The notes beneath the pieces are model-generated. The model was not told the origin of the DNA, made no database searches, and saw only the letters and a program-made list of their open reading frames with translations. From the NCBI GenBank assembly GCA_947034885.2, contig OZ019759.1:5024501-5088500 (forward strand): a stretch of 64,000 nt of DNA, read 5' to 3'. The translations under genes and the position numbers were made by a program. Origin of the DNA: Thuidium tamariscinum. Lineage: Eukaryota; Streptophyta; Bryopsida; Hypnales; Thuidiaceae. Positions 21,966 through 62,828 of the stretch are shown piece after piece; positions within the stretch are counted from its first letter, which is position 1, and every line of letters starts with the position of its first letter.

Positions 21966-24900
21966 TTAGCCATCTCCTTCATGTAAGTTGCCATGGGGTC
22001 CATTTTCCTCTTTTTTTCTAGTCGATTGGCAGGCCAGGGCGGCTTTGGTGTTTGAGTAGCTGGCGACAATATAGAGGATACCAGAGAGTCTAGAACATCT
22101 GGTGCTAGACGATTTGTTGGTTAGAATGTCATCAAGCCCCTCGTCATCATTGAACTCATCGTCATCATCCTCCTCTTCAGATGTATCTTCAGAATCGTGG
22201 AAGATAGGAATTGGTTGCCTTATTTGTTGAGTTGGAAGAGAATCTTGACTAGACCGAAGTGACTTTGATGAAGTGGGATCTAAATGCGTTCCAGGTGGAG
22301 CATCTGTAGACTGAATTTGATATCCACTTCCAAGGAAGTCACTCCTGTCAAGCGTCATTACCTTAGAACAAATGTCTTCCCAGTATGAAGAATCGTCTAG
22401 TAAGCCGGAGGCAAACACATCGACACAACTCATCTGCTCTTAGAGAATTCATTATATTAGTTTAGCATTCACAATATTGACTTTGAATTTGCTCAAATTG
22501 AGATAAAAGAAACATTGTTAAATTCTAAAAAATAACAATTGAATTGAAAACATGCAAATCAGCTCTATTAGAGCTGAATTACAAGAAGGATGCTTACCAT
22601 AGCAGCACATGTTAGCTTCCCGCCAGCAAATCCAAAGAAAACGCACATGTTCAGAGTACAGAACTTCCTAATTAGCCACAAGTAGAATTCCATTCGAAGT
22701 TCAAGATTGTTTAACCAGTACTCGAGCTCACTATATGCCCTAGCCTTCATATACCTCACAGTCTCTGGACATAAGAACTCTTTAGGGATTTTCACTTGCA
22801 CAAGATTCTTGGGATTCTGAAGGAACATCAGAAAAACTTTCTTAGGTGTTTTTGAGGCCGCCATATCTCCAAGCCGGTCATTTTTCCCTGCATAGTATTC
22901 GGCAAACTTCTTGTTGTATGTGCCTAGAGTCTTGTTTGTCTCCACATATTGTAGCACCTTGGCTTGCTCCTTCTCGTCACTACAAACACTAGAAGAAAAC
23001 TACACTATTTATGCCAAAAACTGCATTAAACTTGCCAAACTTGCATTTTATTTAACAGAGACTGCGTTGGGATTGCGTTGCATTCAATGTAACGTGTGGA
23101 GTGGATTATGTTGAGTTCTCCCTTCATAACACAAAATTTTGCGTTTCAACGTGTCAACACAAAATTGAACAAGGAAAACGTAGAATTTTGTGTTAGAATG
23201 AAAAAATCAACATGACAAATCAGGACTTCAACACAATCCACTCTATGCGTTACGTTGAATGCAACACAATTTCAACACAATTTTTGTCAAATACAATGTA
23301 GTTTTCTTCTAGTGAAATGAACAGCCATGAAGTGACTTCTTCAACTTTAGGTTCTTTTTTAAACATGGAGGCCATAACTATATTAAAATATGGATTATCT
23401 AGAGTGGACTTTTCTTTGTTGTCAATCCCTGGCAGCCACTGAAAGTCTACAACTCCAAATCCCATTCGCTTGACCGTTTTGGTTGTCTATGCACCCGAGG
23501 TCCACCCAGAGTGCTTGTTTGTATTTAAGTCATAAGTCTGATAATACCTAGTTGATGTTGGCTTCACAAACTTGGTTTTGTGCTCCAAGAAGACCTAAAA
23601 GAAAGCAAATGCATCCTTCGATAGTTGGACACATGTCTTGTTTCTTAATCTGACCATTTTTGCCTCAGCAAAATACTTTTCCCTGGGTCTATGAAGGAGG
23701 ATGTCCATGGTGGCTCTCAAGAACATTAGGTCGTTCTTGAAAGTCTTCCAATTCTCTACAATGATTTTGTTCTTGGCATTCATCAAACCGAGTTTAGGCT
23801 TTACTTGATGAAGCTCCTTCTTCACCAGGTGCATTTGTTTTCGCCTCTCCGCCCACTCTTTTGTTGTGTAGCAACTATTAAGCACCAAGGTTATTGCTTT
23901 GATTGTCACCTTTAGATAGGAATACCTCCACTTTTCTCTAGACTGGTTCACTAAATGGTTGGCAAGCTTTGCCAATTTGTCATAGCTAAGATTGCCTAAG
24001 AATTTTAAAAATTCACAAGAAAGCATGCAATTGTCTAGGTTCCAATCTGCCCTAGCATTAAAGAACTTATTAGTCTCCGAATTCAAAAGCTCTCCATGAG
24101 CGGATGTATTAATAACCTCTCTCCATAGGTTATAAATTTCATCTGGGGTGGTGATAAGCTTTAGTTCATTTACGAATTTCAACTTCTCTTCTTTATCTTT
24201 TGTCTTCGATATCTTCAAGTTCTTGTTTACATCAATCATAGAGAATCGTACGTAGACAACTTTCTCAAACTCCTGAGGTTGAAGTGAAAATATTAGAACT
24301 AGCATTATTAATTTATTTAAATTTGAAATTTCATTTAAATGGGGTAAAAAGACTTGCTTAAAGAAATGAAAACCAGAATAGTGATTCAACTCTACTAGAG
24401 CTGAATTGCTTACATTGAATTTATCTCTATTCCGGAGGTTTTCTGTCGTCCTTCTAATTGTTGATGTGGTTCCAACGGATGACACATCTTTGGGATTCTT
24501 TGGCCTACCCATGGCTTCCCGCACTGTCCGGGCTCCGAGAATGTTCGTAGCCCATGATAGTTGTGTTGCTATAAAGTGATTTATCCGATTGTAGTATGCA
24601 GAAATATTCCTCAACTTCTCTACATCATCCGACCATACAATGAAGCATTTCCATGTCCTGAAATATTTCTTCATTTCTTTGTCTATACCATTTGCATTGT
24701 TGAGAATCCACTTGCTTGCCTCAACACTATGTTGACTGTTGATAATATAAAACTCGCCGTCCATGACATCCTCCCATTTGGTGGGCTTCTCTGATAGACC
24801 AATAGGCATTACACACAAGTTTTGTTTGTTAGCCTTATCTAGAATATTTATGAGCTATGTTACCATGTCGTCAAGAATGCGGTTATCTTTTGAACGTATA

Positions 24901-25902
24901 TTGAAAGTGGAGGGTGTTGCAATGAGTTTGGAGATGGCAATCTCTTTCTTCTCCCCTATTGGCAAAATGTATGCATCCTCGCATGAAGTCCAAAATCTCT
25001 AGTAGACCTCACTAACTAACTTATAGTCTTGTTTCTTCTTAGTCTTCCGCGAATGAGTCACATTTTGTATTTCCTCAAAATAACTGCCCTATGTGATTTT
25101 GGATTGCTTAGTTGATTATGATGGTATTATTTGGTTTGAAGCCGAGGCAGGCTTTTTTCCCTGCTTTTGAGTTGGTGTTTTTGCTTGCTTTTGACTACTA
25201 CGTTTTCCTCTATCAGACCTCGTCTCAATTGCAAAATTACACCTTGAACTCTCACTCCCACCAACGTTTTCCATCTTTAAGGACACAAAGCGAGCTTTCT
25301 TCAATTCATCCCTCAATTGCAGCTTTCCTTTTAGCGTACTGAAATCAGTAAACATATACCGAAGCTTGGCCACAAGACGTCTCCCATTTATGGGTGTCCC
25401 GTTGGAGTCTTTCCATTCTTTGTTGTCCAATTTCTTTTCAAATTCTTTTATTTCATCAACAAACATAGAAGTCTCTAAACTCTTGACAAAGGGAGTGAAT
25501 GTGAAGGGAATCTACAATGAATCTAGAATTATGGTAAAGTGATACGGCTTTTTGTTGGGTTGATCTAGGTCTGATGCCACACTTCATTCTAATGGTTGGA
25601 TGTACATCCGCCTCACCATCTTTCACTTTTTCTTCGAAAAAGAGCTGAATGTAGACAATGGATTTTTTAAACTTGTACGAGAAAGCCATGTCATTTCTAA
25701 ACGGGATCATGTGGAAGCTCCAACTCTCTACTTGCTCAGGATCCTTGAATTCCCAAATCTCACTGTCACTTAGCATCATGTCTTCTTCCACATTTTCGAC
25801 AACATTTTCTATCTCACATTGTTTAAAATACTGCTCCAAACTTGCGACTTGTTCTTCTATCTTGTATTCTTGTTATTCAAAAGAAAGGTTAGATGTTCTC
25901 AT
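21966..25902 (-). pseudogene. ParB1: ParB/DGQHR-like plus DNA-methyltransferase-like protein
   Basis: Three exons read on minus: 25902-24414, 24272-22598, 22433-21966, with GTAAGC donors at 24413 and 22597. Order of parts: an N-terminal domain (IWEFKDPEQVESWSFHM) shared with ParB3; a Lys/Ser linker; a ParB-like core (LCVMPIGLSEKPTKWEDV, then FYIINSQHSVEASKW, then WKCFIVWSDD and ISAYYNRINH) like the GxxHR..A and asparagine motifs of ParB; and a long helical region. The C-terminal half looks like a beta-class amino-methyltransferase: motif IV degenerated to FGVVDFQWLPG, motif I as FFGFAGGKLTCAA, then VDVFASGLLDDSSY. An acidic tail follows. A CACTA MITE sits in exon 2, and joining its flanks after removing one target copy keeps the frame open through WLFICSDEKEQAK. 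A few in-frame stops near the start and before the ParB core suggest a recent pseudogene. Identification is by motif pattern only. Confidence 0.65.
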
Positions 25903-26464
25903 TTTCAGGTCAAATTGAGCTGATCTGAGCGTTCTATATTTTTTTCACTATTTTAGCAGTCTTTCATTAAATTTACAAAGTTGGGCTTACAAATTTTTTA
26001 ATATATATACCGTAATCTTGTTGTGCCATTCAACTCAATTGGAGCTGAATGGTAGTCTCCTGTTAATAATTTATGATTTTTTCATATGTCTTAGTGGTGT
26101 TTATTGATGAATATCTTGAATGTAATCATTTTTTACATTGTACATGATTCTTATTAGGAGTCTTTTTAGTATTATTTGGAAATTTCAAGAACATAATAGG
26201 ATTTTTTAAACGTTTGAATGTGAATAATTTTTTTCATACTTCAACCTTGTCACACTTGAAGCAATCCGGTGTTTGTTTTTAAGGTTTTTATTATAAGGTT
26301 TACAATTTACCTCTAGTAGAGCTAAATTGCAAAGGTGGAATTATGGGGACCGCTGGTAAACATTCGTTAGTTTATCTCGATTGGAGCTGAATTTCAGAGT
26401 GTTTACTAAAGGACCAAAAAGTTCTTTCCTTGCAATTCAGCTCTACCAGAGCTGAACTGCAAGG
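22557..26464. repeat. ParB1-associated palindromes, six copies
   Basis: Imperfect palindromes around the core CAGCTCTANTAGAGCTG, usually extending to GCAATT..AATTGC. Copies lie at 22557-22580, 24384-24406, 26026-26052, 26302-26330, about 26375-26393 (weak) and 26428-26464. The last is a 37-bp palindrome with two mismatched pairs. Four lie upstream of the start codon; the other two lie in the two introns, one within a few bases of its donor GTAAGC and the other about 15 bases past it. None was seen elsewhere in the window. Confidence 0.88.
22987..23314. mobile_element. CACTA-type MITE in ParB1 exon 2
   Basis: 328 bp, starting CACTAGAAGAAAACTACA and ending with its reverse complement (TGTAGTTTTCTTCTAGTG), flanked on both sides by AAA, the 3-bp target duplication typical of CACTA elements. 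The arms pair further in (GCGTTGCATTCAATGTAACG against CGTTACGTTGAATGCAAC). No coding capacity. It interrupts coding sequence, so it arrived after the gene. Confidence 0.92.
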
Positions 26465-27709: not shown

Positions 27710-27927
27710 CACTAGAAGAAAACCATGTTAAAATTGCTGAAATTACGTCATGTGGTTTGTGTTGAGTCCCTGTTTACGAACGCAGTGAAAACGCAGTGAA
27801 AACACAAAAAAACGCAGAAAAAGCATTTTTCTGCGTTTTTTTGTGTTTTCACTGCGTTCGTAAACAGGGACTCAACACAAACCACATGACGTAATTTCAG
27901 CAATTTTAACATGGTTTTCTTCTAGTG
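27710..27927. mobile_element. CACTA-type foldback MITE
   Basis: 218 bp, starting CACTAGAAGAAAACCATG and ending CATGGTTTTCTTCTAGTG, with CTT on both sides as 3-bp target duplication. Nearly the whole element is one inverted repeat, the arms meeting near GCAGAAAAAGCATTTTTCTGC. It shares the first 14 terminal bases with the MITE at 22987, so both were probably moved by the same CACTA transposase. Confidence 0.95.
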
Positions 27928-30900: not shown

Positions 30901-30999
30901 TAAAACAATGTACACATTTTGACAAATTCTTAAAAAATCCAAATGGATTAGTGTTCAATTTTAAGTGGAGGTTTACTATAGTGTAGATGAATGAATCAT

Positions 31000-32035: not shown

Positions 32036-33299
32036 TAGAGGGGATTGCTATATTAAAAATAAAATATCATTTGACTTAAAACAGATCAATAAAGAACCAA
32101 AATAATGTGGATGTGGAAACTAAGGAAATAAAAAATGAAACAAGCAAATTGAAAACACATATGGCAATTTAAGAAAATGACATACAAGAATATAGCAATG
32201 TGGTGATCACTATTAAAAATAATGAAAACGTAGCAATGTCATGATCACTATAAAAAAGATTGAAAATATAGTAATGTAGTAATTACTATAAAATAAGCAT
32301 ATAAAAGGTACTATAAGATTAAGATATCTGATAGGGTCTTAGAAAACTAGAAGATCCTTCATTCCGTAGTATAAGAAGAATCTCAGGCAGACTCTCCACT
32401 TGAAGAAGTGGCCTCAACATCCAAGAAATCCAAGGCACGAGGGTGCACTTGTCCATAATGAGAAGAAGTACTAGTACCGCCATAAACTTCAAATGGTGTA
32501 GCCATCATTTTAGCATAAATAGGCAAGTCAAAAGACTTTTTAGGACTCGGAAAAAAATTAGGTCTTTAGAACAAAGGAATAGTGGATTGAACTTCACCGC
32601 TCACAAATTTGAAACAAACAACATAATTTAGCCAAATATAAATAGGCATTATGAACAAAAAGAATTGAGAAGTGCAAGGTTGATTTACGTATTGAATCTG
32701 GATTTCTTCTAGATTGGTTCCACAATGCCAACATCATCATTGAGGTCAACAATTTCTTGTGCTACTGATATTGCAGGAGTTGCAACCACTACCGGTGCAC
32801 GAATAAGAGGCTTAAGGACATTTTCAAATAATGCCTTGTCCTCTTCAATAGCAACAATATGGCGACCAGAAGTTCGACAAGCATGGATAGAGGCACCTGA
32901 AAAACAAAAATTATTAGATAGTAGCCTCAAGAATGTGACTTAAAAAAAGAGTAAAATATTAAAAAAACAAATTAAATTAAAAGGGTTCCAAGAAATCACC
33001 TGTACTTGTAGTGGCATCTAAAACAACGTGACTAGGTAGTGTGTACGATTTGATCAACATATTAAAAAGCAACGAGCTTTTCTGTCGAGCTCCACGCCAA
33101 GGGCAGTCACCATTCATAATCAAATCATTCTCATAAACATAATTGTAGAAAACATCATCTCTCTCCACATCAACTCTGCGTGATACAAGATCGGAAATAT
33201 GCTGGAATGCAAACTTGGAGTTTGGAAGAGAAGGAATCTTCCTCACCAGTAAAGTAATCCCAAATTGTTTAGTCTGCATCACAAAATTTATTAGAAACA

Positions 33300-33435
33300 G
33301 TAATTCAATAATTCAATCAAACTACAATTCAGTAATTCAATCTAATTATAATTTCACCAATTCAATCAGAGTATAATTCAATCAATTCAATCAAACTATG
33401 ATTCAATCAATTCAATCAAACTATAATTCAATCAC
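33300..33435. repeat. Short tandem repeat, ATTCAATCAA units
   Basis: Imperfect runs of AATTCAATCAAACTA / TATAATTCAATCAATTC, roughly 26-28 bp apart, in the ParB2 intron between the exons at 33488 and 33273. Confidence 0.75.
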
Positions 33436-36400
33436 TTCTAATTTTTGCCTCTAGAATACAAAACGCCTTCAATAGTTCAATTCTCACCGTTCCTCTCAAG
33501 TTGGCAAGATTTGTTAAATATAGCTTATTAACACCCCACCAATCAAGCTTCTTTTAAAAGGAATATGCATTCGTATGCTGCAATAATGTCTTCTTAGCTT
33601 GTAAGCTATGAGGGTGAATGACAATGAGGCGCCATCATCATGAAGATGCATATTTGCAAAGTCAAATATAGGTTCTAACCAAGAGGCTAGTAAGGCATTC
33701 TAGGAAGGAATACTGGATTCTGGGTCACTTACTCCAATTACTAGAAGACCCTCTGGCATATCTACCAAGATAAGGTCAAAGCCGGGGTGCTTATCCACCT
33801 GCCCACGATAAGACCTTTTCTTTTTTGATGCATTCTGTGAAAAAAACAAAGAATTGATTAGTGATAATGAAAGAGAGGTATACACAAAAAATACAATTGA
33901 AAGGATAAAATTACTAATAGAATTGGATATACCTTTTGATAGAATGTCAAAATGCGGCTGTAGTCTGTTGGACGGTCACCAGTCATGCCACTAAGAACCA
34001 AATCCACATTTGTATTCAAAATGAGTTCGGCCACATCTGCAACATTTGAATCCACCGATCTTTGTATAGGTGCACGAGTTTGCACTTCCGTAAGTTAAGC
34101 ATAATGCGATGCCACAACTATACCAGTCGAAGGTTGCACCTCCAAAACTGATAAGTTGTCCACTAATGAAGTAGGGGCATCTGCAATAGGAGTTGGCTTC
34201 TTTTCCTTGCCCTTCTTTTGAGTCTCTTTTGCTGCAGCCTTTGCAGCAGCTTTCTTCTTCTTTTCTTCTTCTCGTGCAGCTGCCTTCTCCACATCTTTGT
34301 CTTGTTTCTCCATTTTCTTCTGGTCCTCTTCAAGTCGCTTGCGAATTGCTTCTTCCTTGGCACTCTCCTCCAAACCGGCATATTCATCCGTAAAAACCTC
34401 TGAAGGTATAAGAGACTGAAGACTTTGCCAATATGCAACCTCAGATGGAGGTGTAAACGAAGGATCGCATTCCAAATACCATCCACAACCTTGAAGGTGT
34501 GCAGTGGTGTAGGTCTTGATTTGGTATAAAGAGAACATATATTTTGGAGACCAACGGTCTATCCAATCATTCATGAAAGGGAGCAAATCATGCTTGGAGA
34601 TGGCTTTTTTGTTGTACAACTCCAACTTGAAGTACTTGAATCTAATACAAAGATAATTAGAGCACAAATAATTAGAGGAATGTAAAATGAGAAGTGACAA
34701 ATCATTCAATGATTTTATACCTGAAAACAACATGTTTAGTTATGTTGTCGGCTTCAAAATACTTTGAAAAAGAATCTCCTTTTTTGAAAGGTTTTTTTCT
34801 ACCAAGCTCATTTCCAAATGCCTGATCCCAGATCCGCATGCGCCATTTTTCAATGTAGTCTTGTATAGTCATAGGCTCCAAAGGGCTTGTTATATCAATT
34901 GTCAAATTGTCCCGAGTAGATATTAGGTCTACCTCTGAAACCACAGAGGCTTCAATCTGCACAGAATCAAGAGGAAATTTAGTATTCAATTTTTGCAACC
35001 AGTTGTTAAAAATAAAGGTACTTTAACCAAAGCACTTATCCCTGCCCATCATATTGCCTTCTAAAGAAAAGCCGTAAGTTTATCATCATTCATAGGCTTG
35101 GCTAAAAACTTTCTTGCTTCCCTTGAATGTTTGGAAAGATTCCACCATTTTAACCATTTCACTTTGTAGACAACATCTGAACTTGAAGTTGCTATAAGTT
35201 GAAGCTTATCAAGAGTCATCTCGGGCTCAGCATTCAAACTCCAATGCCTTTCAATCTAAACATGAAGAAGAAAAAATCAATATTTGCAAAATAATAGAGG
35301 ACTATGAAATGTAAAGAAGATTAATTAACATCCAAATTTTTACCTCTTGAAACCACTCAGAACCAAGGGCTGGATTAACTACGGTGACCATCTTTTCCAT
35401 TTTGTAGTATAAATGTGACAATCTGTCTTTTGCCCCTTTCTGCATTGTAGCTACAACTCCTTTTTCAATAACCTCCCCCTCTGGAATACATTCATTGTAC
35501 ACCCTTGCAGCTATGTCATCCGCCTCTGCAATCTCATGCTGAAGTAATATCCAACCCAAAAAATCATTAGAAAAGGTCAAAATTAGAGCCAAAATCAAAG
35601 ATGAAAAACAAAAGTTGAAGATATTAAAAAAATAAAATCATAGGACAAAATATAAAGGAAAAATCGAAGGACAAAATAAAAAGTAAAATGAAATGTCATA
35701 ATCAAACATTGACAAAAAAACAATTACCTGAAAGATGAACAAGGTAAAGACCTCTAAAGTCATGCAATACCATGTTTTTTTAGAATTTTGTTGGCACTTC
35801 CTATAATCAAACTCGGTCAGCAACTCCTGGAATTCTTTTAGAGGCATTTCACCATACCTTCTCACTTGATATAAAGTGTAGATCAACTTCGTCTTGACAT
35901 GTGACTCTTCCGTATGCCTGTAGTAAAGAAGTGAGCCCAATTCACCAAAACACAAAAAGAAAATCAAAAAAATCAAAAGATGTACTTACTTATTAATATC
36001 ATGCATAGCTTGTATGAGAGTCCCATTCCGTCCTTTTGTCTCCAACAAAATACAATCCACCTGAATATGCCAATCTGGATCATTGGGATGTTTTGAATCA
36101 ATGTGGGACATCGACGCGATGTAACGGTGGTTACCATCACAAATAAAAAACTTCAGGTTTTTGAGGCAATGGAGTTCCGGTGTACGTTCAAGCTTTTCTT
36201 CAAACTTTAGGACTTCTTCCTTCCAAAGAAAACTGAAGCTTGCACGCTCATCTAGGGATGAAAGTTGTGTTTGTCCCTCTGCATTTGTGGTAGATACGTA
36301 AAAAATAGCAAATCCTTCACGATAGTTATGAACATACTCTTGATCCAATTTTGTCAAATCACACGTCAAGGTAGGCCTCACAATAGGCATTGGAAATAGA

Positions 36401-37565
36401 AGGCACAATAGAATGCCCATTCGAGAAAGGGCAATAGTTTTAAATCGCATGTTGTTTATTATAGAATTTGAATCAATCTTGTGCCTATGGCGAAGATCAT
36501 CTTCATCAACATCTTCTTTAACCACTTGTTCATCACCAATCTCCAAAACCTCCTCACTGTTTGTATCACCAATTTCTGGTTGGGTTTCTTGTTCTGATTG
36601 GGGTGTGGTATCTTTTGACAAGGCTCTTTATGCAGAAGTAGGCATAATTGGTTCCTAAATCAAATTGCATTAACTCAGTTAAAGCCAAAAGCATACAATT
36701 CAAGAAAAGAATCATTGGATCAATGTGAACTAGTATAATAATGACATTATATATGTGAATGCAAATTGACAGAAAAGAAATACAATTGTAATAAGAATAT
36801 TGACCATTCACTATCCATAATAAGGCCATCAAATATATTGTCTTTAAAGTTGTACATTGAGATCTTTTATTCATGATTACAAATAATTGAAAGCTAAATC
36901 ACAATCATGATTGCTAACATATTCCTTGGGCTTAAAGGAGAGATAAGTTTTCCTTTTATTCACTGAACTCCACCTTTCAACTTGTAATCCAAAAAATTGA
37001 AATATCCATCAAATATATCAAAGATTGTATCCAAACTTACCGATCCCTCTGGTTGAAGATTGTCCGTAGTTCTCATAGAATCCTAAAACTAGGAATCAAT
37101 CACTTTAGAATCCTGGAAGGAACAACAAAGGAATTAGTCATTATCAAATTGATTTACTAATGAAAAAAATACAATTCAAGAAGTTTCTCACCTGAATATT
37201 CTCTTGAAGGTTTTGACCCTCACAACCCATAGGTGTTCGCAACTCAATCTACAAAAATGAGGACCAATTTATGGAATTACTCAATTAGAATGATAACAAT
37301 ATAAGAAGGAATTCTCTACTCTTCAACAAAATTAAAATAGATTAAAAATAAATAAACCAAATAACAAAACTTTTGAGAACTAAAATAACAAAACTTTTGA
37401 AAACAAAATGAAGACTTAGATCACAAGGAAAGCATTTGAAAACAATTTAAATTAGGTGCACCATGTGTTAAAGGTCTTAGCATCAATTGTATGGAAGGAA
37501 TACTTGATTTTAAAAGGCAATCTGCGGATCCAAAAATTATGAAAACAAAATAGTCTTTACCCCTT

Positions 37566-38931
37566 TTGCGGTTTAGCAAGGGAACTAGAAGAGGTGGGTG
37601 CACACTTGGAGTTGACCATCTCCAAAATCAATCAATTTGAGCTTTCTGTCTCCCCATTGCGGCACCGCAAGGTTGCCAAAGGAGAATTGTTTTTCTCAAT
37701 CCTCACGGAATACTACTGAAGATTCAGATTTGGATTTTCTCTTCTCGTAATTGCACAATCAATTCTCAAATCTACGCTCCCAGAGTTTCTGTTCTAGGCT
37801 CCCAAAGTCTCGATTTTGTAATTGTAGCTTTGTGATCTCGACCATCTTTTAAATTTCTCCGAAATCATAATGGCTCACTTCCCAAATCAACAAGGATTTG
37901 TGCTCGAATTGTAAGTTCAGAAGCAGTATAATCAAATCTCCCCGCCCCTCTTGCGGTACCGCAAGGGAGCCATGAGGGGTAGATAATTCCCAAAAGCGCA
38001 ATTAGGGTGTGTTGGTGCATACACCAACATAGGGTGCGTTGGTGTATGCAGTGCGTCGTTGCCACCAACTCCGACATTCACTTCATCTCAAAACTCATTC
38101 CCCTCTTGCGATACCACAAGGAGTCTGATGGAAGTTTGTTTCTTGAAATCTATCTGCAAATCGTAGCTAAAGACTGAGATCCAAGTTTTCTGATACCGAA
38201 ATGCGATCAAAAAGCAAAAAAGATCTCGTCCCGACCCCTCTTGCGGTACTACAAGGGAGGCAGGAGGGATTGTACAGTTCCAAAGCATGTTCACTTATAA
38301 GAACAGGGTGGAGATACAATCTTGTGAATTGATTAGTTTCCAACTTACCCCTGCATCGGAATTAAACAAGACAAATTTCAACACCCTTTCTCCCTCTTGC
38401 GGTACTGCAAGAGGGAGAAGGGGTGTAGTATTTTAAGCAAAAAATTGACTTTGTCCTTGCATCAAATTCGTCTTGGCTTTTAGTTTGGAGCACAAATTTG
38501 CTCCGACTTTGACGCGGTTGAAACTTAATAGCCACCTCCGCGGCCCACAACGACCCTCACTCGCGGCCAACAAAGAATCGACTACAAAATTCCCCACCCC
38601 TGTTTCTGATTCTTGCTCTGGTTTTTGACTTTTGGAGAATTTGAGTGGAGCCCAGCCACTGTCCACGGTAGGATCTTACTGGTTCACATTTCCTTGCGCC
38701 GGAAGCCAGCCTAAGAAGGCTAATGCGACTAAGATCAGCCAGACTCCTGCGACTGAAGACCAGGGTGAGAAATCCGAAGAAAAAAAAATGCCCCCAACCC
38801 TCTTGCGATACCGCAAGAGAACCGGGGGCGATTCAACCGCGTGGTGAGTGGCGCTCAAGATGCTTGCCATCTGTCTTCCTATTGCTGTTGCATGCTTTGC
38901 AGTTTCAAATCTCTCCCTTGCGGTACCGCAA
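37566..38931. repeat. ParB2-associated palindromes, eight copies
   Basis: Core palindrome TTGCGGTACCGCAA, often flanked by CCCTC and GAGGG. Cores at 37566-37579 (weak), 37657-37670, 37951-37964, 38106-38119, 38241-38254, 38397-38410, 38803-38816 and 38918-38931. At 38397 symmetry extends to about 46 bp (ACACCCTT..AAGGGGTGT). The unique sequence between copies differs in length and content, so this is not a tandem array. All lie in the 5' leader intron region between the first ParB2 exon (39437) and the next (37248). Confidence 0.92.
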
Positions 38932-40162: not shown

Positions 40163-40891
40163 CAGGGTTGTCTATCCCGACGTGACGTGGGCTTTTCCCG
40201 TCCGGATGTCATGACGCGTCAGTCGTGACGAGTCAGGACGCGTCAGAGGCCGTCCCGAATGTTGACAGCGTCGTCGACGGCCTGGATGAAGTCCGTCGAC
40301 CGTCGACAAGGCCGTCCACGAGGCCGTCGACCGTTAACAGGGCCGTCGAGGAGGCCGTCGACCGTCGACAGGGCCGTCGAGGAGGCCGTCCACCGTCGAC
40401 AGGGCCGTCCACGAGGCCGTCGACCGTTAACAGGGCCGTCGAGGAGGCCGTCGACCATCGACAGGGCCGTCGAGGAGGCCGTCCACCGTCGATAGGGCCG
40501 TCGACGAGGCCGTCCACCGATTAGGGTTGGCCGGCTGCAAACTTCAGAGCCTTGTAACTTTTGCAAAAAGTCTTCAAATTGGGCAAATGAGATGTTTTTC
40601 GGCATCTACAGAAACTGTAGATGCCGAAAAACATCTCATTTGCCCAATTTGAAGACTTTTTGCAAAAGTTACAAGGCTCTGAAGTTTACAACCGGCTAGC
40701 CCTAATTGGTTCGATTCTATTCTAGACGGTCCGGTCGACGGTGGACGGCCTCGTTGACGGCCCTGTCGACGATTTTTCATGCTCTGTCGCGGATTCTGTC
40801 GTGAATTTCATCCTGACGGACGCTCGGCTCCCCGTCACGTCAGCGGACGGACATCCTGACGGACGGACGTGACGCGACGGAAGCAACCCTG
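40163..40891. mobile_element. hAT-type foldback MITE with internal repeats
   Basis: 729 bp, CAGGGTTG at the left end and CAACCCTG at the right, flanked by the perfect 8-bp target duplication GGGACTCC (40155-40162 and 40892-40899), as for hAT elements. The left half holds tandem units built on GGCCGTCGACCGT.AACAGG and GGCCGTCGAGGAGG (about 40270-40510). The centre (about 40517-40713) is a nearly perfect palindrome with a tiny loop at ACAGAAACTGT. Long open frames on both strands come from the GC-rich tandem units and are not genes. Confidence 0.93.
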
Positions 40892-40899
40892 GGGACTCC

Positions 40900-41668
40900 A
40901 CTCATTGCTTCCGTTGCTTCCAAGATTGTCTCCATGTTCCTTGTCGCCTCAGTCACCTCCTTAATGCCTTCTCCATAACGAAGTGGTCAAATCCCCAACT
41001 CTGAAACTTGACTATTTTTTGAAACAACTTTCTTTTCCCTCATTTTTGCTCTTCTAAGTGCCTTCAAAGATGAAAACAAGAGTGGCCTGTGATTTCTTCT
41101 GCGCTTCCTATCTACTACTACAAGACCACTCACCCACAAATACATGAAATTGTAACCCTAGAAGATGACGTTCTCTCCTTTCGAGGTGCAACTACAAGTG
41201 AGGTAGAATTGAGGAACTTGTGCTCTCGTAGTCCCTTCTTGGTATGGACTTAACTAGCACTCCATGAAAAGACAGCTAAGCTTTCAAAATTGGTGAATCT
41301 AGTGTCAGACAATTACGTTTTGTTTTGGTTTGAAATAGTTGCATTTAAGTTCTTTGTTGGGCCGGAAAGTACTACACCTATCCTACTCATTAATTTGCCT
41401 GCCTTATAATTCTAGAAATTAGTCTTTATTCAATTATTATCTAGGAGGGGTGGCTGCCCATTATTGTATGTAGTACATATAACCACTCCTATTCCATTCT
41501 GAAGATAGCTTCATCTTAAATGCTTGGTTCAATGAATTGACAACAGTATATTTATTACTATGTATATGCATTAGGTTTTGGTTTTGAACTTTTGAATGCC
41601 TTACCTAAATGTTTCTTTTATGTTCCGGAGATTGATCTTCCTTTACTTGTATCATTCTTGTTCTTGGC
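40900..41668. other. Non-coding, upstream of the Mutator-like gene
   Basis: No supported reading frame. The sequence probably holds the leader or promoter of the following gene; no clear TATA box or splice site could be chosen. Confidence 0.4.
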
Positions 41669-43049: not shown

Positions 43050-43079
43050 TAAGGCCTTATCTCGTTAAAACGAGACAAA
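43050..43079 (+). repeat. Left terminal inverted repeat
   Basis: Begins TAAGGCCTTATCTCG, then GTTAAAACGAGACAAA. Just inside (43130-43165) the related phrase CATTAAATTGAGACT occurs twice in tandem, like subterminal copies of the terminus. Confidence 0.75.
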
Positions 43080-46480: not shown

Positions 46481-46512
46481 TCTGCAAATAATATGTCAAC
46501 AAATAGAGAATA

Positions 46513-47297
46513 TATCACCAAGTCGACGATAACAAATGAATATGCACATCCCCTTGACTGCAAATCAATCCAAAAACGCCACCGATTGATCCACTGAATT
46601 GATTCACATATACCGTTTTTTTTTGTGAAACATTATTAAAACAAGGCAATAAAGATTATATACAATCCCATCTGAAAACTATCCTCGAATCGACGATAAC
46701 GTTGACAAGTCACATATACTCTAATGTACCTCTAGTATGTACGGCTAATAATGATCCTGACATTTGAACATGAACAACTCTCTACTACAAAAGAGTAAAC
46801 ACAAAATGCATATTCACTTAGATATTGAGTTATCCTCGACTCGAGGATAATCATAAGCCGTACACATAGTTTTCAGTAATCGATGTTCCCATTCACTTTT
46901 TGATTTAAGTCTAGTCATGGTAAAAATTACAACAAGATTTACAACTTTATCAAGTATCCTCAAGTCGAGGATAACCCTTACAGAAGGAGGACTAATAACA
47001 AGGGAACCACAATCCGAGCTTCAAGTAAATCTTTAAACATAAAATGATACAATTATCAAATATCCAATATCAATATGTATTAGTACACTAAAGAGATATC
47101 CTCGACTCGAGGATAAGTTCTTCATAAAAATCATGCACAGTACTACCAATGATAGACTTATTCATCCACAAATTCACCTTCAAAATTGAGTTAGAAGTCC
47201 TCAAGGTTCCCGAGTAATAATCTCAATCACTTCTATGTTCTTCCTTATCATCATCGAGTCGATGATATCGACAACTGCTATCATCGACTCAGTGATA
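46513..47297. repeat. Element palindromes upstream of DUF7869, seven copies
   Basis: 19-bp palindrome TATCCTCGACTCGAGGATA and variants at 46513, 46680, 46831 (perfect), 46955, 47097 (perfect), 47249 and 47279. Spacing is mostly 120-170 bp, with the last two adjacent. Variation is mostly at the fifth base pair (C/G or A/T, still symmetric), at the centre, and by CG to TG/CA changes. Confidence 0.93.
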
Positions 47298-54010: not shown

Positions 54011-54221
54011 GAGGGTCAGCTGGCGGCTTGGGGTGCGGTATGGTGGATCATCTTCCTCCGCGCGCAATTCTCTCATTGTGTGCTTTCGAATTTGCGTGGG
54101 TGTTCTCGTTCATCGGGGTTTACGGAGATTTGTTTTCTTCCGCTCTACTTCACAACCTTCTCTTGATTTGTCTCGCGAGTAGGGGCAGGCGAGTTCTCGC
54201 GAGTTGAGGCGGGCCAGATCC

Positions 54222-54228
54222 TATAAAT
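54222..54228 (+). promoter_or_regulatory. TATA box, probable ParB3 promoter
   Basis: TATAAAT preceded by a GC-rich stretch and followed by a likely leader exon; GTGAGT near 54298 could be its donor. The first ParB3 coding exon is about 1.5 kb downstream, with five palindromes between, the same layout as the other ParB genes. Confidence 0.5.
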
Positions 54229-55058: not shown

Positions 55059-55661
55059 TATCCTCGTATCGGTGATAAAATTAAAAGCACAGAGGTGAAG
55101 CCAAACTAAATACTTAGGGTTTTAGGACAGAGAAAATGTTATCCTCAACCCGACGATACAACCAAAGGTGTGCATTTGAGAATTTTATCCCAGAGTGTAG
55201 TTATCGTCGAATCGAGGATACTACCCAAACACGCTAACCAATGAACCTGAACACTAAAACTGTACAAATGTATTAGAAAAAAGTAACAAAGTAATATAAA
55301 TCTCAAATCAACATAAATATCCGAAATTCCATTGCGTTCCTCACTTCGATAACATGATTTCAAAGTTTGCTCTCTATACATTATATCGTGAAGTAGTGTA
55401 GTTATCCTCGATACGATGATAGATCCTACATTCTGTTAGAAGAATTAGTTCATATTAAGAATCTGTAGACAGATCTCTCGTGGTACAAACTGTAGAGTGC
55501 AAGAAGTAACTTATAACTAAATCCCGATATTATGAATGCTGGATGTGAGAATGTAACTTCCTTCTCGTTCAAAATGGATTAAGCTGGCATTCTTCCATAG
55601 CTTTTTGGTTAGTGAAACACTTATTAGTAAAGTATTACGTCTTATCATTGAGTCGACGATA
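55059..55661. repeat. Element palindromes in the ParB3 leader, five copies
   Basis: Variants of TATCCTCGACTCGAGGATA at 55059, 55140, 55202, 55403 and 55643. None is perfect; differences are mostly CG to TG/CA or one altered half-site. Confidence 0.88.
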
Positions 55662-57134
55662 ACATTGTCATGACTAACGATACATGTGCTCATAATGATG
55701 TAGAATTTCAATAGGGACAGTAGAGGACTACGATTACTCCCTCACGGCTGACCATCTTCAACCGTTCATTAACCCCTTACAGGACGAGCCATTCATTTCA
55801 GAAATGCAAGAAACTTATGGGACCCTGTGGGAGTTCAAGAGTCATATCCACACCTGGTGTTTTGGGGTGAACCGGTTTAGGAACTACGTGTACCTGCGTT
55901 ACCGTGTTGAAGGATCCACTGTGTATATGCCCTGGAATACAAAAGAGAAGGTGACTCTCATTGAAGAGCATCACAAAGACTTTGTTGTGATCGTCTTGCA
56001 AGAAGTAGACGATGCTGGCAACGTCAAGGATCACAGTCATTCCATCGTTTTGAACGTGAATTCATATCACGGGAAATTCGATATAGACAATTTAATAACA
56101 TTCCTGGAAGGCTCGGCGATGGAGTCATTGAACGTGCATTTTTTGAAAGCTGGGTATGTTCCTTGGAAGAACAGCACTGCTAAGTCCAATGCCACTCGAC
56201 TGCGTCTCATTTTCCAAACATTGGATCGTTACGCTATGGAACACGTGGAGAAGCAACCTGTCATTGGTCGTCCCACTAAGCAGAGACAACGTCCAGTGAA
56301 CCTTGATCAAGGTAGAAGAACTGCGACTAGTGCCGGGTCAGGGAGCAGAGCTTCAAAGCCTGGTCAGTCGAGATCTGAACCCAAGAAAAGGAACCCTCCT
56401 CCACAAGAAGGTGAGTCAAGTAGGAAAAGAAAGAAGAGCCTTTCGTCTACAGCAGCTGCTGCCAACAGCTCCGCTTCCGCACTCACTATCGTATCAGGGG
56501 GTACAGCAAAATCTGAGCCCGAGATTCCAGACTTTAAGAAGTTTGACGAGATTCAGAAGAAGTTCTGGACTGAGCACAGAAAGTGCTTTCTGTTTGATGA
56601 AGAGACAATGAAAGTTGACATCAAATAGTGCGATGAGGCGCGTCCCGAGTACGTGATTTGTACTCTTCAGAGAGACATTCTGGAGGCCGTGAAGAGGGAG
56701 CTCATCCAGCTTATAGACGTCAAACAAAGGCAGAAAGTGTGCCTTATTCTAGTGGGTTTGGATGGAAACCTATTGCCCCAGAAACCAAGGAAGTGGGATG
56801 ATATTAAGGCTGGCTGCTTCATGATTATTAATGGCCAGCATAGCATAAAAGCTTCTCAAGAGCTGCAACTAGGCGGCTGTGGGAAAGCCAGGAAGGTGGA
56901 ATTAAAGACCTGGGATGCTTACATCGTATGGTTTGTGGACGATAACCAATTAAGAAACATATCGAAGTTCTATAACTACACCAATCACTTAAACCACGCT
57001 CAACCGACGTGGGGCAACCAAGTAATTAGTTGTAGAAAGATTTGGGTTACTTACGGTCGTCCGACTGACACGGAATCAGAGGATGGGACACGAAAAAATG
57101 GAGCAACAGTTGACCTGGTGAAATATAAGGTGAG

Positions 57135-57272
57135 TATCATCGACTCGATGATATCTTAGGTTCAGTGTAGGTGTTCAATCTTGCATTCTTCATGGTGAAG
57201 AAGTAAAATTCTATAAATTTTTTCACAGATGGTAATCGTACAAATGCTTGGATTATCCTCAAGTCGATGATA
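57135..57272. repeat. Two element palindromes in ParB3 intron 1
   Basis: TATCATCGACTCGATGATA (57135-57153, perfect) begins five bases after the exon end, overlapping the GTGAGT donor by one base. A second copy, TATCCTCAAGTCGATGATA, is at 57254-57272. The matching ParB1 intron also has a palindrome right after its donor, of a different sequence. Confidence 0.93.
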
Positions 57273-58678
57273 TGGCATGATCACCTGCAAAATGTTTGAC
57301 AAATTATATTGTGAACCGTTTTGTAGAATTTCACGGACGTTGTCATCGAGCGGTTCAGAAATATAAACCCGGACCGGGATGGCGCTTCCATTAGTGGAAC
57401 CTCAGATCTCAAGAATGAGATCCAAATAATCACCCTACCAGACAACCTGTGGGAGTTTTGGGAGAGCTTTTTGACGAAGCACTCCGACGGTGACTTGGTT
57501 GACCCCGTGACTTTGGAGCCATTTAAAGCGAACAAGCTCTTCAAAGCAAAGAGCATGTCATTGAAGAGGGAGTTCTTCAAGCACTGTGGACACTTCACGG
57601 ACGAGGACTTCGGTGTCAACGCACAACACCTGCTTGGTTTGACCCCAGGACGGATTTCTAAATATCCGAAGGTCTCCATCTCGTCGACCAAAGTTCTAGT
57701 TCCTGACAACATGACCCACAAGGAGTGGGTCGAGCGCAAGAAGCATAAAAAGGTTGTGCTACAAGATCTAATGGCAATTAACCCAAGCTTGAAGTTCATC
57801 ACAGTTGGTGGTGAGGTTCTGAATGAGATCTGGAAGTCTTGGAAGGCCAGACATCAGTTCACCTCAACTTCATGGGACTTCCTGCTAATGCACTCGAGCG
57901 CTGATTACTTCAAGAGGCGATTGAGGAACGACGCATGGTTGAAGCGCGCGAAGGACCTGGAGAACCAATTTCCCGCGATTCTGCACATGTTTCAGTGTTT
58001 CATGAAGCTGAAGTATCAGCTTCCTGATCCGTCTGGTGGTGTTCAAATTAGAGGCGTGGACTACTCGAAGATGGCACTCGTAACAAGCTCCAATTATCGA
58101 TACGTGAATCGAGAAGTGAACTTCGCCCTCGTCGATTTCAGGGTGGCTCCAAGAGAGAAGCCCACAAACACAAGCAATGCCATAGGTCGTTTCCTGACCT
58201 TTCTGTGGGAGAATCTTTCGCCAAAAATGAATGAAGCCAATGTGTGGCTCTTCATTTTGCGGGGATCAGATGACATCGAAGCCGCGAAGGCCTTTGCGTT
58301 GCTTCATATGACAGAGTATGACAGCGTTTTGTCCACGTACCATCCAGCTAAAGCTGAGCTTCTGGACAATGTGACCTCTCGAGGGACGGCTCCCAACGTG
58401 CCCCTCCTCTTCCTATTCAAAAAGAATAACGAGTTCGCGGCGTCCAGTCAAGCGCTCCTGAAGTCAAGTTATTTGACCGTCCCAACTAATGTATATTACT
58501 CGGATTGGGGGAAGAATACTGAAGCGAAGTGGAGGATTAATCCCACCGAACTCTTTATGGAGTTTTATTTGGACATCCTTCATGATTTTGCGAAGTCAGA
58601 GGAGAACGTCCTCAGCATTTACGTAGGGGCAAAGTTCATGCTCGTAGCTAAGGTGAGTACCTGACCCTTTCTGGAAGT

Positions 58679-58782
58679 TATCCTCGAATCGATGATATCG
58701 TCTTTTGTTTTCCTCTGAATTATGCAAACATCGGGTGTTGGTAACTGGCTTAGTGAAATCTGGTATCATCGACCCGATGATA
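58679..58782. repeat. Two element palindromes in ParB3 intron 2
   Basis: TATCCTCGAATCGATGATA at 58679-58697 and TATCATCGACCCGATGATA at 58764-58782, inside the 200-nt intron that separates motif I from the rest of the methyltransferase-like fold. ParB1 has its own palindrome in the same intron. Confidence 0.92.
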
Positions 58783-59983
58783 CCCGTCGCGGCGGCCACA
58801 ATATCAAGTTCCTTGATGATGTTCTAATAGAACTGGTTTTCGTATTTTGCAGATGTTTGGGGCCTTCTACTATGGATTCATTGACAGGAGTGAGGTGAAG
58901 TCCTACAAAGCGATCTCTTCTCTAGCAGAGAAGATGGATAAAAAGGACTTCATGATTGGGAATTCGCCATACTCCTTGAATTACGTGAAGCCTCAATCAC
59001 GTGGTCCAATTGTAGTACGATCGGACTCGCCACCATCGCCGGCTACTACTTTTGTCTCCCTAGCTTTAGTAGTTCGACCTTCTTCTCGGGTGACAGAAAA
59101 CGTTGGCCCGCACGTAACACCAGATCCGGGGGTCCAGGGAATTGACGAGTATGGAACAAACACGTTCCAGATATATCTCTGGACGTCAGTACCTGCTGCT
59201 GGCGACAAGGCTGCACAACCCGCTGTGCCTGAACCTAATGAGATGGAGGTTTTGGAGATTGTGGAGCATCAGCCTTCTCCACGAGCACCGTTGAATTTTG
59301 CTGCAGCTGAGCATGACGAGTTCCAGGATGACGAAAGTATGGAGACAGACTCAGAATTCAAGCGGCAACAGGCGGAGCGGAGAACGAAACTTCGGGAGGA
59401 AGAGGACTCCCTGGGCTTTGAAAGCAAGGAAGACTCGTTCCTAAAGTCGCCTGTGAAGGAAGGGGACGACGAATCCGAAGATGAAGATGTAGTCATGCAA
59501 GAAAGGAGGCTTCCCATCGGTGAGGTGGATGCAGAAGGGAGGCCTCTCTTCTATGATTTTGGGGATGATGACGACCCCATGGACCATCCCCACAATTCGG
59601 ATCATGACAACAACGACCACGATGCTCCTCCGAAGCAGAAGGAACTGAAACCCTTAGTCCTCCCCGACGGCAGAACGATCAAAGTGGAAAAGGACTACTG
59701 GGCAGAGCAAGAGGAGGTGAGAAGAAAGCGGATCGAGAGGACAGAGGAGAAGAAAGCGAAGGACAAGCTGTTGGAAGAAACAAACACCAAACTCATCGCT
59801 GTCACGCAAGAGTCCGTGCAGTCGAAGGAGAAGATGTCTGCGCTGGAGCTGAAGTTGCAAAGGCTCTCTCAATTGGTAGAGAGTCAGTTTGGTCCAACGG
59901 CTATCCAATTGCAGCTTCCCTCGCCTGCCCCACCTGCTGTCCTAGTTCCTCCTCCAGTGCAGCAGCTGGTTTCTGGGCCTCCG

Positions 59984-60170
59984 TATCCTCGACTCGAGGA
60001 TACCTCCCAAGTCATTTCCTTAGTCGACACTGAAGTCGTCGAATGCACTCCTACATCCCAGCTCAGGGTGAGGATGGCATCTCCGCAGGTGGCTGCATTT
60101 GAGGTGGCAGTACCTCAACCGCGAGGACTTGCTGAAGAACAGGCTCAAGATTATCGTTGACTCGACAATA
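59984..60170. repeat. Element palindromes inside ParB3 coding sequence
   Basis: A perfect TATCCTCGACTCGAGGATA lies within exon 3 (59984-60002), read as YPRLEDT. A decayed copy, TATCGTTGACTCGACAATA, lies at 60152-60170, where its CGA-to-TGA change makes the in-frame stop. Confidence 0.9.
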
Positions 60171-60781
60171 TCGTTAAAGTCGCGAAGGAGCAGCCCTTGA
60201 GTTCAGTATCGGCGCCTGAACTTGATACGACTGAACAGGTGCATGAGCCCATGCAGACCTCCTCTCCGATCGAAGAGGAGGAGAGATTGGACTATGGGGA
60301 GAACGACCCCGATGAAATCGTCCTCGAGGAAGGGGAAGATGAAGTTGTTGCGATGGAGATTGAAGATCAAGGTCCTCTCAACCCGGCACAACCAGTGCTG
60401 GTACAATCCTTTGGTCCTTATGCTTTTGATTGAATATGAAAACACGAGATAAGGTGCCTTACCCTCTAGAAATGAGATGTTCTTCAGAGAATTGTAATTC
60501 TTATAATGATCTATCATGTCTCACAGGAGGGAGTCGCCACTCCTTGACATCCTGGCGCTGACAGAGAACCCGTTTGTGGCGGACAGAATGTAGTATAATG
60601 TAGAGTAGTCCTGGAGTGTACAGCCTTGACGGCATTAAAATTTTGAAAATGTATTTTATACACCGTGTAAATAAAATCTCGGAATTTACAATCTACACAA
60701 GTGTGTATGTCTAATTGAATTCCCTTGTCAATGTTTTTGGTTCAGCTCAAGGTTAGTGTAAGTTTGCATCACCCACTACCC

Positions 60782-61695
60782 ATGAAGCCAATTCCTAAAG
60801 AAAGGGTGCAGTCCAGTAGCGAGTTGCAATGCGTCTCTCTGCATTTTGGCTTTACCAGTCCTACAATTATTCAGGTAACTCCAATTCTTTGTTGTTTTGG
60901 TTTGATCAGGTAGGATCGGAGGGAGGAAAGGAGGTCATGCGGACGATTGAGCGTCCAATCATGCCTCCGCCGAGGAGGAAGTGGCTGAACATTGTCTTCG
61001 ACCTGAACGAGGTGCTCTGTCACTCCTCGTCGGCGAAATTCGGCAAAGACTTCAAGCACTACAAGGTCAAAGACAATGTTCTCAGCCATCGGTACCCGAC
61101 CATCATCGGATCCAAGGCTGTATTTGCTAGGCAGGACGTCGGCGAATTTCTGAAACAGGTGTCTGAAATCGCGAATAAGGTCGTGGTCTGGTCTTCAATG
61201 TACAAGTATAACGCGGTAGCCATCGCGGGACACTTGTACTTGAGGTGCAGACCTCCCTACAAAGTCCTAGGACAGGAGAACTGTACCAAGATAGAGTACA
61301 GTCCCGAGAAGTTCTTCCACCGTGGTCCGAAAGAATTGAACATGAAAGTGCTGAAGTATGGTCTGTTCGACACTATCGGTAATGCAGGGTCGTCGTTTTC
61401 GACGGAGGACACCTTGCTCATTGACGACTCTCCCGAAAAGAGTGTCTGCAATGAGACCAGGAACTCCATCTTCCTGGAGACCTGGAGCTACCTTAATCGG
61501 AGGGATGACGTCCTCATGGGACAGCTGCGATACGTAGACGAGAATAGGATAGGCAATAACCCCCTCTCCCGCAACCATTTTCATTTCACGAAAATCCTTG
61601 AGGTCATGAGGGAGTCAGCGGATTGCATGAACACTCATTTCAAAGTGCCCATTGTAGGTCTCACCATCGAGAGATGCCGTCGTTGTAGAAAATAG
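60782..61695 (+). CDS. FCP1/SCP-like HAD phosphatase-fold protein
   Basis: A probable first exon (ATG 60782, MKPIPKERVQ) ends at a GTAACT donor (60874) and joins in phase to VGSEGGKEVM at 60910. The body carries the FCP1/NIF-type HAD pattern: motif I FDLNEVLCH (normally DxDx[TV]), then ARQDVGEFLKQ and KVVVWSSMYKY for motif II, and motif IV LLIDDSPEKSV. The nucleophile aspartate and the DD pair are kept, but the second motif-I aspartate is asparagine, so phosphatase activity is doubtful. Related plant and animal enzymes dephosphorylate RNA polymerase II tails; here a regulatory or binding role is as likely. The C-terminus ends ERCRRCRK. It lies inside the 20-kb element between palindrome clusters, on the ParB3 strand, with no break seen in the HAD part. 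The start and a possible upstream exon are uncertain. Confidence 0.7.
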
Positions 61696-61842
61696 ATTTT
61701 TTTGATTGTAGAATTAGGCATCGAGGGAGTCCACGCAAATGGTAACTAATTTTTTATGTACGTAACATTTTTTTGTAAAATAAATATAATGTTTTTTCAT
61801 GGCATTCTACGTTCATCTTGAAAATCTTATGCTTCATCGATC

Positions 61843-62828
61843 TTGATGCATAGCAAGTTCCAGATGTATCCGTGTACTTATAGCAAGGATCGTCTTTGGA
61901 TTTGCATCGTTACTGTTTTATTGCAGTTTGGAGCTTTGCATTCTATTCCAACGCCCAGAAAAGAGAAGCTCACTAGGAGCCTCCTCTCGAGATCAGAGAT
62001 TTCGCCCTCCACCGAATCTGATTTTGGCGGTGGGAACTGCGAATCGGTTCCAATATCCAAGCCCTACATGTTGCGTTCAGCCACAGATGCGGCGTCAGCC
62101 GCCATAGACTTTTCTAAGGGGAACATTGAAGATGGAGTCGTCGATAGCCCTCCAAGTCGCACTACGGGCAGGACTCCCATCTGCTCGCCGTCGTCGTTGA
62201 GACGAACATCCTCGAGCCGAGGAAGGTCCTGGTCGCCACTCCGCAAAGGGATGGAGCGACCAGTCAAAAGCTCGAACTCCCTGTCGAAGACGCTCTGGGG
62301 CATCCTCGCCTCGAGGATAATGTCCCGCCTTTGAATCGGTTCTCTAGTAACCTTACCATGGCTGTGGGTTCCCAACTTGAACCTGGTGCTCCTAATGTCC
62401 CTGTTCGCTCACCTCAACTCCAGGACAATCCAACCCGTTCCTCCAATTCGACAGGGGGAAGGCGCCTGCCTTCCACGGATAGTCTTTTTTGTCAAAGATT
62501 TTTTAGAGAACATCGACGCTATCTAGACACCGTGTCTACCGGAACTACTCTTCCCTTATCAAACAATGAGAAGGGCCCTCTGCCTAAACCGCCCCCATGG
62601 AATTCCAAATCGATTTCCACTTCGGCAGTTCCTCAGAGTACGCGATCATCGAAACGGAAAGCCAACGAATCTCATAGTCTGAGTGAGACTGGAACTCCGT
62701 ACAATGAAAATGGGTCACATTATTCTTCTCGACGCGAGGATATCTTAAGAGGTCTTGCAAAGCTGAAAGCCGAAGAGGCAGGGAAGGTTGTATATGTAGT
62801 TCAGTGCGAAGCTGCTAAAAAAGATTGA
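61843..62828 (+). pseudogene. Broken gene for a Ser/Arg-rich disordered protein
   Basis: I do not recognise this. Two overlapping frames share the region: 61843-62334 gives a Ser/Arg-rich protein (SLLSRSEISPSTESDF, SSLRRTSSSRGRSWSP); from about 62145 to 62828 another frame gives KVLVATPQRDGATSQKLE, LEDNVPPLNRF and a Lys-rich end (DILRGLAKLKAEEAGKVVYV). They look like two parts of one disordered protein joined by a frameshift or missed splice. Three palindrome variants lie within. It is the last gene before the right terminal repeat. Confidence 0.4.
62207..62742. repeat. Element palindromes in the last gene, three copies
   Basis: CATCCTCGAGCCGAGGAAG (62207-62225), CATCCTCGCCTCGAGGATA (62301-62319) and a weaker one at 62724-62742 ending CGCGAGGATA. 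All match the 19-bp element palindrome with one to four changes. Confidence 0.8.

Follow-up and report, generated by a model that had tools for sequence, protein, structure and literature searches.

Evidence that ParB/methyltransferase-like proteins of large moss transposons have diverged together with the palindromes of their own elements, a candidate self-recognition system

Three genes for ParB/methyltransferase-like proteins, here called ParB1, ParB2 and ParB3, lie in a 64,000-nucleotide stretch of the genome of the moss Thuidium tamariscinum (positions 5,024,501 to 5,088,500 of contig OZ019759.1, assembly GCA_947034885.2; hereafter the window), each accompanied by a palindrome of its own. 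We found that these genes belong to multicopy elements, that the one carrying ParB3 is a DNA transposon of 20.3 kb, and that within the superfamily formed by ParB1 and ParB3 protein and palindrome have changed together. The in-silico evidence for self-recognition is strong, and the sequences make it highly probable that the protein binds its own palindrome. Anti-silencing as the output, which is argued by analogy with a transposon protein of Arabidopsis, is an evenly balanced proposition; the whole explanation, in which self-recognition and anti-silencing are combined, we regard as somewhat favoured.

In the proposed mechanism each family would be a large DNA transposon carrying the gene for its own DNA-recognition protein, built from a ParB-like domain and a beta-class methyltransferase fold without the catalytic motif; in the ParB3 type an NIF domain is either fused to this protein or encoded next to it. 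The protein, as we infer, would dimerise and bind the palindrome of its own family, of which there are between several and about 20 copies, situated in the leaders, intron starts and spacer of both the transposase and the ParB gene. Once bound, the protein would sustain transcription of the element's own genes against host silencing. The outcome would be sequence-specific anti-silencing or auto-activation that works like VANC of Arabidopsis and has evolved from other proteins, and with divergence of the protein-site pairs each family would come to serve itself alone. A methyltransferase fold without its catalytic motif would suit recognition without modification. The sites track the ParB gene and sit in its introns and before the transposase gene; taken with the analogy to VANC21, this suggests that the proteins may license transcription of their own element.

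All three palindromes are far more frequent in the window than expected. Six ParB1-type sites were found at up to 3 mismatches (0.19 expected), seven ParB2-type sites at up to 2 mismatches (0.08 expected), with a degenerate eighth readable at about 37570, and 17 ParB3-type sites at up to 3 mismatches (0.04 expected); an improved ParB3 consensus, TATCNTCGANTCGANGATA, has 19 matches at up to 2 mismatches. An earlier sequence-only reading of the window had counted 6, 8 and 21. The groups of palindromes that it described in 5' leaders were borne out. Five of the 17 ParB3-type sites (46680-47267) are not at the ParB3 gene; they precede a separate transposase gene, still within the ParB3 element. 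Nor is each family confined to one locus, as it had held. In the whole genome (G000, 363 Mb, in which the window occupies 5.02-5.09 Mb of contig C11), the ParB3 palindrome occurs at 997 places with up to 1 mismatch, the exact ParB2 palindrome at 58 and the ParB1 palindrome, with up to 1 mismatch, at 20, against 0, 1 and 1 places for the respective reversed motifs used as controls. Each of the three palindromes therefore marks multicopy elements. The families had also been called unrelated, yet the ParB1 and ParB3 motifs have the core CTCnAnTnGAG in common and are bridged by a ParB1 relative with sites near YAGCTCGANTCGAGCTR; the ParB2 motif alone looks unrelated. The half-sites present in this one genome include TATC(C/A/G)TCGA, TATC(C/T)TCGA, YAGCTCGA, CAGCTCTA and TTGCGGT.

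Co-divergence of protein and site is seen among ParB3-type copies. In the window and the sampled loci (overlapping loci L002, L003, L004, L026 and L028 left out), TATCNTCGANTCGANGATA is matched 182 times at up to 2 mismatches, compared with once in the reversed sequences. Besides the centre, base 5 of the half-site is the one freely variable position, base 9 being somewhat variable. At base 5, loci L005, L006, L013/14, L017, L021 and L022 have C 74 times, T 66 times and A twice; the window and L001, L007/8, L012, L015/16, L018, L019/20 and L024 have C 75, A 68, G 45 and T 2; and L009-L011 have C 30 and G 2. The ratio of T to A/G is thus 66:2 in one lineage and 2:113 in the other, counts in which the sites within one element are not independent; C is over-represented because loci were picked via exact C/C sites, which leaves the contrast of T with A/G unaffected. 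Hybrid palindromes that join a T half to an A/G half make up only 2 of the 182 sites, where random pairing of halves would give 21.9, and the sites by the transposase gene match the linked ParB type (L013/14, L007/8).

The same separation is visible in exact sites, of which the genome holds 219 of the T/T and 324 of the A/G type (control 0 each). On C1 and C2, the contigs with complete sets of both types, 87 exact sites fall into 24 clusters, 12 T and 12 A/G, with no cluster mixing T/T and A/G; shuffling of the labels in 10,000 permutations gave a mean of 13.2 mixed clusters and a minimum of 8, and the nearest T to A/G distance is 392 kb. All 13 of 13 copies that share at least 59% identity with ParB3 exon 2 have, within 15 kb, A/G sites only; ten lie on C1-C2, two more on C3, which the A/G set still reaches, and the last is L008. 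Among copies of at most 56% identity on C1-C2, seven of nine have T sites only. Neither exact type is present at L005, whose less exact sites do contain T half-sites, or at L010, which with L011 falls in the C-only group. A gene on C4 (55%, with a T site) was left out, as it had been noticed via its site and the A/G set stops before C4. Genes on C1-C2 that were found by protein search alone, among the best 95 of 457 candidates scored, have exact sites within 15 kb in 13 of 13 cases; homologous genes lacking palindromes, which the sequence-only reading had named as what would speak against it, thus did not turn up for ParB3 on these contigs. As a separate observation, C2 carries two mirror-image groups of T-type sites and genes, at 19.299-19.310 and 19.334-19.346 Mb, about 24 kb apart.

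Relatives in other genomes were available as predicted open reading frames (ORFs; P0001-P0061). Their site types were assigned indirectly, from peptides that continue into the intron and there spell out the palindrome (for example YRRLDD or YPRLED). On a protein tree of 40 rows the T label needs three changes, at least two of them by well-supported branches, and these may be gains or losses. T-type L034 of the window's own genome, which covers 37% of the tree columns, groups (100/99) with P0027 and with P0015, a relative from another source whose T label comes from one peptide-coded site; this group stands inside the A/G part of the tree, apart from the L005-L014 group. Weighing against co-divergence is P0027 itself, which is labelled A/G by one half-site, contrary to the pattern. 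Taken together, the data strongly support joint divergence of protein and palindrome in the ParB1/ParB3 superfamily, and those for ParB2 are consistent with it.

The position of the sites was analysed as well. Although coding sequence (tblastn-matched, hence a lower bound) makes up 33% of the bases, 174 of the 182 sites lie outside it (p about 4e-21). The first site of intron 2 starts 21-29 bp past the predicted end of exon 2 in all 13 ParB3-type copies with a matched exon-2 end, whose protein identity ranges from 39 to 100%, and the first site of intron 1 starts after 5-136 bp in 11 of 11 copies; the copies were located via palindromes, so it is the position and not the presence of sites that is informative here. 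Changes outside base 5 were symmetric in one case and one-sided or unequal in 131, while at base 5 itself 104 of the 182 sites are symmetric, compared with 59.5 expected. What is kept is therefore base identity rather than pairing, which points to reading of DNA half-sites by a protein and away from RNA hairpins.

A more distant pair extends the pattern. The ParB1 gene (21966-25872, minus strand) is a diverged ParB3 homologue (25% identity over about 1000 amino acids, E=6e-65) that has been degraded by in-frame stops, and its six palindromes CAGCTCTANTAGAGCTG (22560-26454) comprise two in introns and four in the leader. The intron sites lie 10 and 21 bp past predicted exon ends that are the same as in ParB3; in L029, an 81% copy, the distances are 10 and 22 bp. 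L023, a ParB1 relative at about 70% identity, has the imperfect sites CAGCTCGAAACGAGCTG and TAGCTCAACTCGAGCTA, and YAGCTCGANTCGAGCTR, which was predicted from them, has 225 exact copies in the genome (control 0). Fifty listed YAGCTCGANTCGAGCTR sites form 11 clusters, of which five include a gene of ParB1 type (64-72% identity), another is 2.5 kb away from a 48% copy, and the remaining five have no gene among the matches listed. By sequence, the YAGCTCGA half-site is a bridge between the half-sites TATCCTCGA of ParB3 and CAGCTCTA of ParB1. The ParB1 motif of the window is itself rare: 14 of its 20 places are on C11, and the 20 consist of three in the window copy, five in L029 and 12 scattered ones, part of which fall within copies of ParB3 type or YAGCTCGA type. 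Of the distant relatives of ParB1, those sharing 38-48% identity with it, most lack a nearby exact YAGCTCGANTCGAGCTR site among the matches listed, and may use other motifs. Transposase-like fragments near ParB1 (20171-20749 and 16000-16521), which may or may not belong to the ParB1 element, have no similarity to the ParB3 transposase. A CCGGA-rich element at 13600-20150 and 11285-13348, with similar-looking gag-like genes at 11285-13348 (plus strand) and 17890-19395 (minus strand), seemingly splits transposase-like fragments near ParB1. An 86-bp inverted repeat of 99% identity was also noted at 27710-27927.

The ParB3 gene lies in a transposon whose ends were mapped. The element occupies 43051-63372, as given by copy breakpoints and end alignment, and is inserted in the ParB2 element. 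Its terminal inverted repeats, from alignment of both ends, are about 28 bp long and start AAGGCCTTAT, and ATAT flanks it at 43047-43050 and 63373-63376, a 4-bp target duplication. When the window was compared with copies, the left end broke at 43047-43051 in four loci (L016, L024, L007 and L019) and the right end at 63375 in one (L015), and in L031, a ParB2 element without the insertion, position 43050 is joined to 63373 as an empty site. Together these data place ParB3 in a 20.3-kb transposon nested within the ParB2 element. Another insertion, of which L015 and L016 were treated as the two halves, has ATAA at its borders.

Within the element, the transposase gene stands on the left and the ParB3 gene, divergent from it, on the right. 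The former (43625-46495, minus strand) is DUF7869-like, from a Pfam match of its C-terminal ORF that lies below the Pfam cut-off (E=0.008), and has in-frame stops; seven TATCNTCGANTCGANGATA palindromes at up to 2 mismatches lie upstream of it (46513-47297). Transposase homologues adjoin palindromes in L007, L009, L013, L016, L019, L021 and L024 as well. Five palindromes occupy the ParB3 leader (55059-55661). Predicted exon 1 (55804-57129, plus strand), with one in-frame stop at 56626, encodes an N-terminal PH-like region and a ParB-like domain at about residues 265-398, and is followed by two intron 1 palindromes (57135-57272), the first starting 5 bp into the intron. Predicted exon 2 (57327-58652, plus strand) encodes the beta-class DNA-methyltransferase fold, and of the two palindromes in intron 2 (58679-58782) the first starts 26 bp into the intron. 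Predicted exon 3 (58853-60433, plus strand) encodes the methyltransferase tail and an acidic and coiled-coil-like region, with one in-frame stop. A palindrome at 59984-60002 falls within coding sequence, where it reads YPRLEDT, and the exon-3 matches of L001, L008, L015 and L020 likewise contain sites.

Downstream, at 60820-61695 (plus strand), lies an NIF domain similar to phosphatases of the RNA polymerase II C-terminal domain (CTD; Pfam NIF E=2e-11). In the Ceratodon purpureus homologue P0008 the NIF domain (E=9.7e-12) is fused to the ParB-methyltransferase part in one gene model; here it may be fused to ParB3 or form the next gene. Active CTD phosphatases carry DxDx(T/V). The domain in the window reads DLNE and that of P0008 DLNG, so judged from its sequence the phosphatase may be inactive too.

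The ParB and beta-class DNA-methyltransferase folds of the ParB3-type protein are predictions from structure models; Pfam scans of single window ORFs detected neither domain, and a sequence-profile search against solved structures gave nothing useful. In active beta-class DNA methyltransferases motif IV has the form (D/N/S)PP(Y/F/W). None of the 28 aligned sequences has this PP motif, and in all 25 with letters there K replaces the last G of FxGxG, for which reasons methylation by this domain is unlikely. The sequence-only reading needs correcting or completing on three points: the genes are carried by transposons in many copies, two of the palindromes are related to each other, and the methyltransferase fold is without its catalytic motif. 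The CTP (cytidine triphosphate)-binding box of bacterial ParB is GERR/GxRR. At its position the window copy and seven of eight aligned homologues have GQHS, and P0008 has GQHR. In-frame stops in the best 95 of 457 exon-2 copies comprise 59 TAG, 29 TGA and 7 TAA, a spectrum that would be expected if the elements were CHG- and CG-methylated and had decayed by deamination. Among the same best 95 exon 2 matches, 42 are on C11 (17.5 Mb, 4.8% of the genome), which is perhaps a non-recombining or sex chromosome.

The ParB2 gene (32700-36654, minus strand) has a ParB-like DGNHR box and a degenerate N6/N4-methyltransferase domain (Pfam N6_N4_Mtase E=0.0035, below the Pfam cut-off), and BLAST of ParB2 against ParB1 and ParB3 gave no significant similarity. 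Its seven palindromes TTGCGGTACCGCAA (37657-38931) lie between two divergent genes, ParB2 and a partner (41636-43009, plus strand) that is kept in all four ten-kb loci (L030-L033); the sites have this intergenic place in the window and in the same four loci. At a fifth place (L025/L026, 3 kb) a ParB2 exon match was found with five sites. At 40293-40710 a 96-bp inverted repeat (95%) comes after a 31-bp tandem array.

Four other explanations were weighed against these data. The protein might mark or repress its own element, through adenine or cytosine methylation at or near the palindromes or as a copy-number repressor. The predicted combination of ParB and DNA-methyltransferase folds favours this, and for algal ParB-methyltransferase transposons it is a published hypothesis (PMC12477816). 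The missing motif IV and the replaced FxGxG glycine speak against methylation and leave a repressor unaffected, and we consider marking or repression as a whole unlikely. Alternatively, the palindromes could be internal repeats bound by the transposase for transposition, with the ParB protein doing another job. Their occurrence before the transposase gene fits such a role, as does a transposase tree that splits the same groups (L009/L013/L021 versus L007/L019/L024/window/L016), but many palindromes are in the introns and leader of the ParB gene. Furthermore, ParB1 and ParB3 are related in both protein and motif, yet the transposase-like fragments near ParB1, which may or may not belong to its element, are unlike the ParB3 transposase. 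Binding by the transposase is therefore distinctly improbable.

The fixed distance of the intron 2 site from the exon end would also be natural if the palindromes acted as RNA hairpins and so governed how ParB and transposase transcripts are spliced. The conservation of base identity over pairing argues otherwise, and sites occur in intergenic spacer too, which for ParB2 is their only place, making a hairpin role very improbable. That the palindromes are inert repeats, inherited from a family founder or spread by duplication, is scarcely credible: short tandem runs of sites do occur (e.g. L014 2625-2709), but copies with no more than 39-45% protein identity keep near-invariant sites at equivalent intron positions, and within one element the dispersed sites agree in their base-5 preference.

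The sequence-only reading had known of no description of such a system in plants. In general terms one exists, since a transposon protein co-evolving with its own motif is known from the VANC proteins of VANDAL elements (PMC5735166), Mutator-like transposons of Arabidopsis. According to the parts of the two sources used here, the short motif that VANC21 binds lies in introns and between genes of VANDAL21, and the protein lifts silencing at that element (PMC5735166, PMC10398659). The moss system resembles it in several ways: a multicopy DNA transposon encodes a protein other than its transposase, a short motif recurs in the non-coding DNA of the protein's own family (introns, intergenic stretches and ends), and related proteins serve different families via different motifs. 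In the moss elements we likewise found a transposon-encoded non-transposase protein, a family-specific non-coding motif and related proteins with different motifs. The two differ in that these source passages name no ParB, methyltransferase or NIF domains for VANC, in that the VANC21 motif YAGTATTAY is a 9-mer whereas the moss sites are 17-19-bp palindromes, and in that VANC was tested by chromatin immunoprecipitation, electrophoretic mobility shift assay and methylome analysis, whereas the moss system is known from sequence alone. The predicted ParB and methyltransferase folds argue against membership of the VANC family.

The ParB-methyltransferase protein class, for its part, is already known from algal transposons. 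The part of PMC12477816 used here describes ParB and DNA-methyltransferase accessory genes in Sola1-1_Ec32 of Ectocarpus and cites green and red algal cases. As in the moss, ParB-like and N4-cytosine/N6-adenine (N4C/N6A) methyltransferase domains are joined in one protein of a giant DNA transposon, the gene is transcribed opposite to the transposase, and self-binding has been suggested for the algal protein. The moss genes share ParB and methyltransferase folds in one gene, transposon-borne opposite the transposase, but not a methyltransferase that would make N4C or N6A: their proteins are without the catalytic motif, NIF follows, and the transposase is DUF7869-like. They differ also in having palindromes and co-divergence, that part of the source mentioning no palindromes for algae. 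The open-access literature searched yielded no paired palindromes, co-divergence, catalytic-motif loss or land-plant case for ParB-methyltransferase genes. Bacterial ParB, Noc and KorB with their parS-type operators are similar in the predicted ParB fold and in clustered palindromes near the gene. The moss proteins differ from these in having GQHS for the GERR/GxRR box and in their eukaryotic transposon context, and no ParA was seen in Pfam scans of 20 window ORFs. From beta-class methyltransferases such as M1.HpyAVI, CcrM, RsrI and bdelloid N4CMT they differ in the two motif losses described above.

It is conceivable, at slightly less than even likelihood, that these elements represent a second, independently evolved plant transposon system of self-recognition and anti-silencing, built from a bacterial-type ParB, a dead methyltransferase and an RNA polymerase II CTD-phosphatase-like domain, with at least five protein-palindrome pairs and at least two changes of a recognition base on the protein tree. 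If binding is confirmed, transposons of land plants would have acquired sequence-specific self-recognition on more than one occasion, a testable function would be at hand for the ParB-methyltransferase genes of giant transposons, and the palindromes at fixed intron places would be accounted for. One plant genome would then hold a large natural series of recognition proteins paired with palindromes (at least 95 and at least 151 matches listed in two protein searches, with genes partly shared), in which single-base specificity switches could be read, and these would be orthogonal DNA-binding pairs that may reset chromatin.

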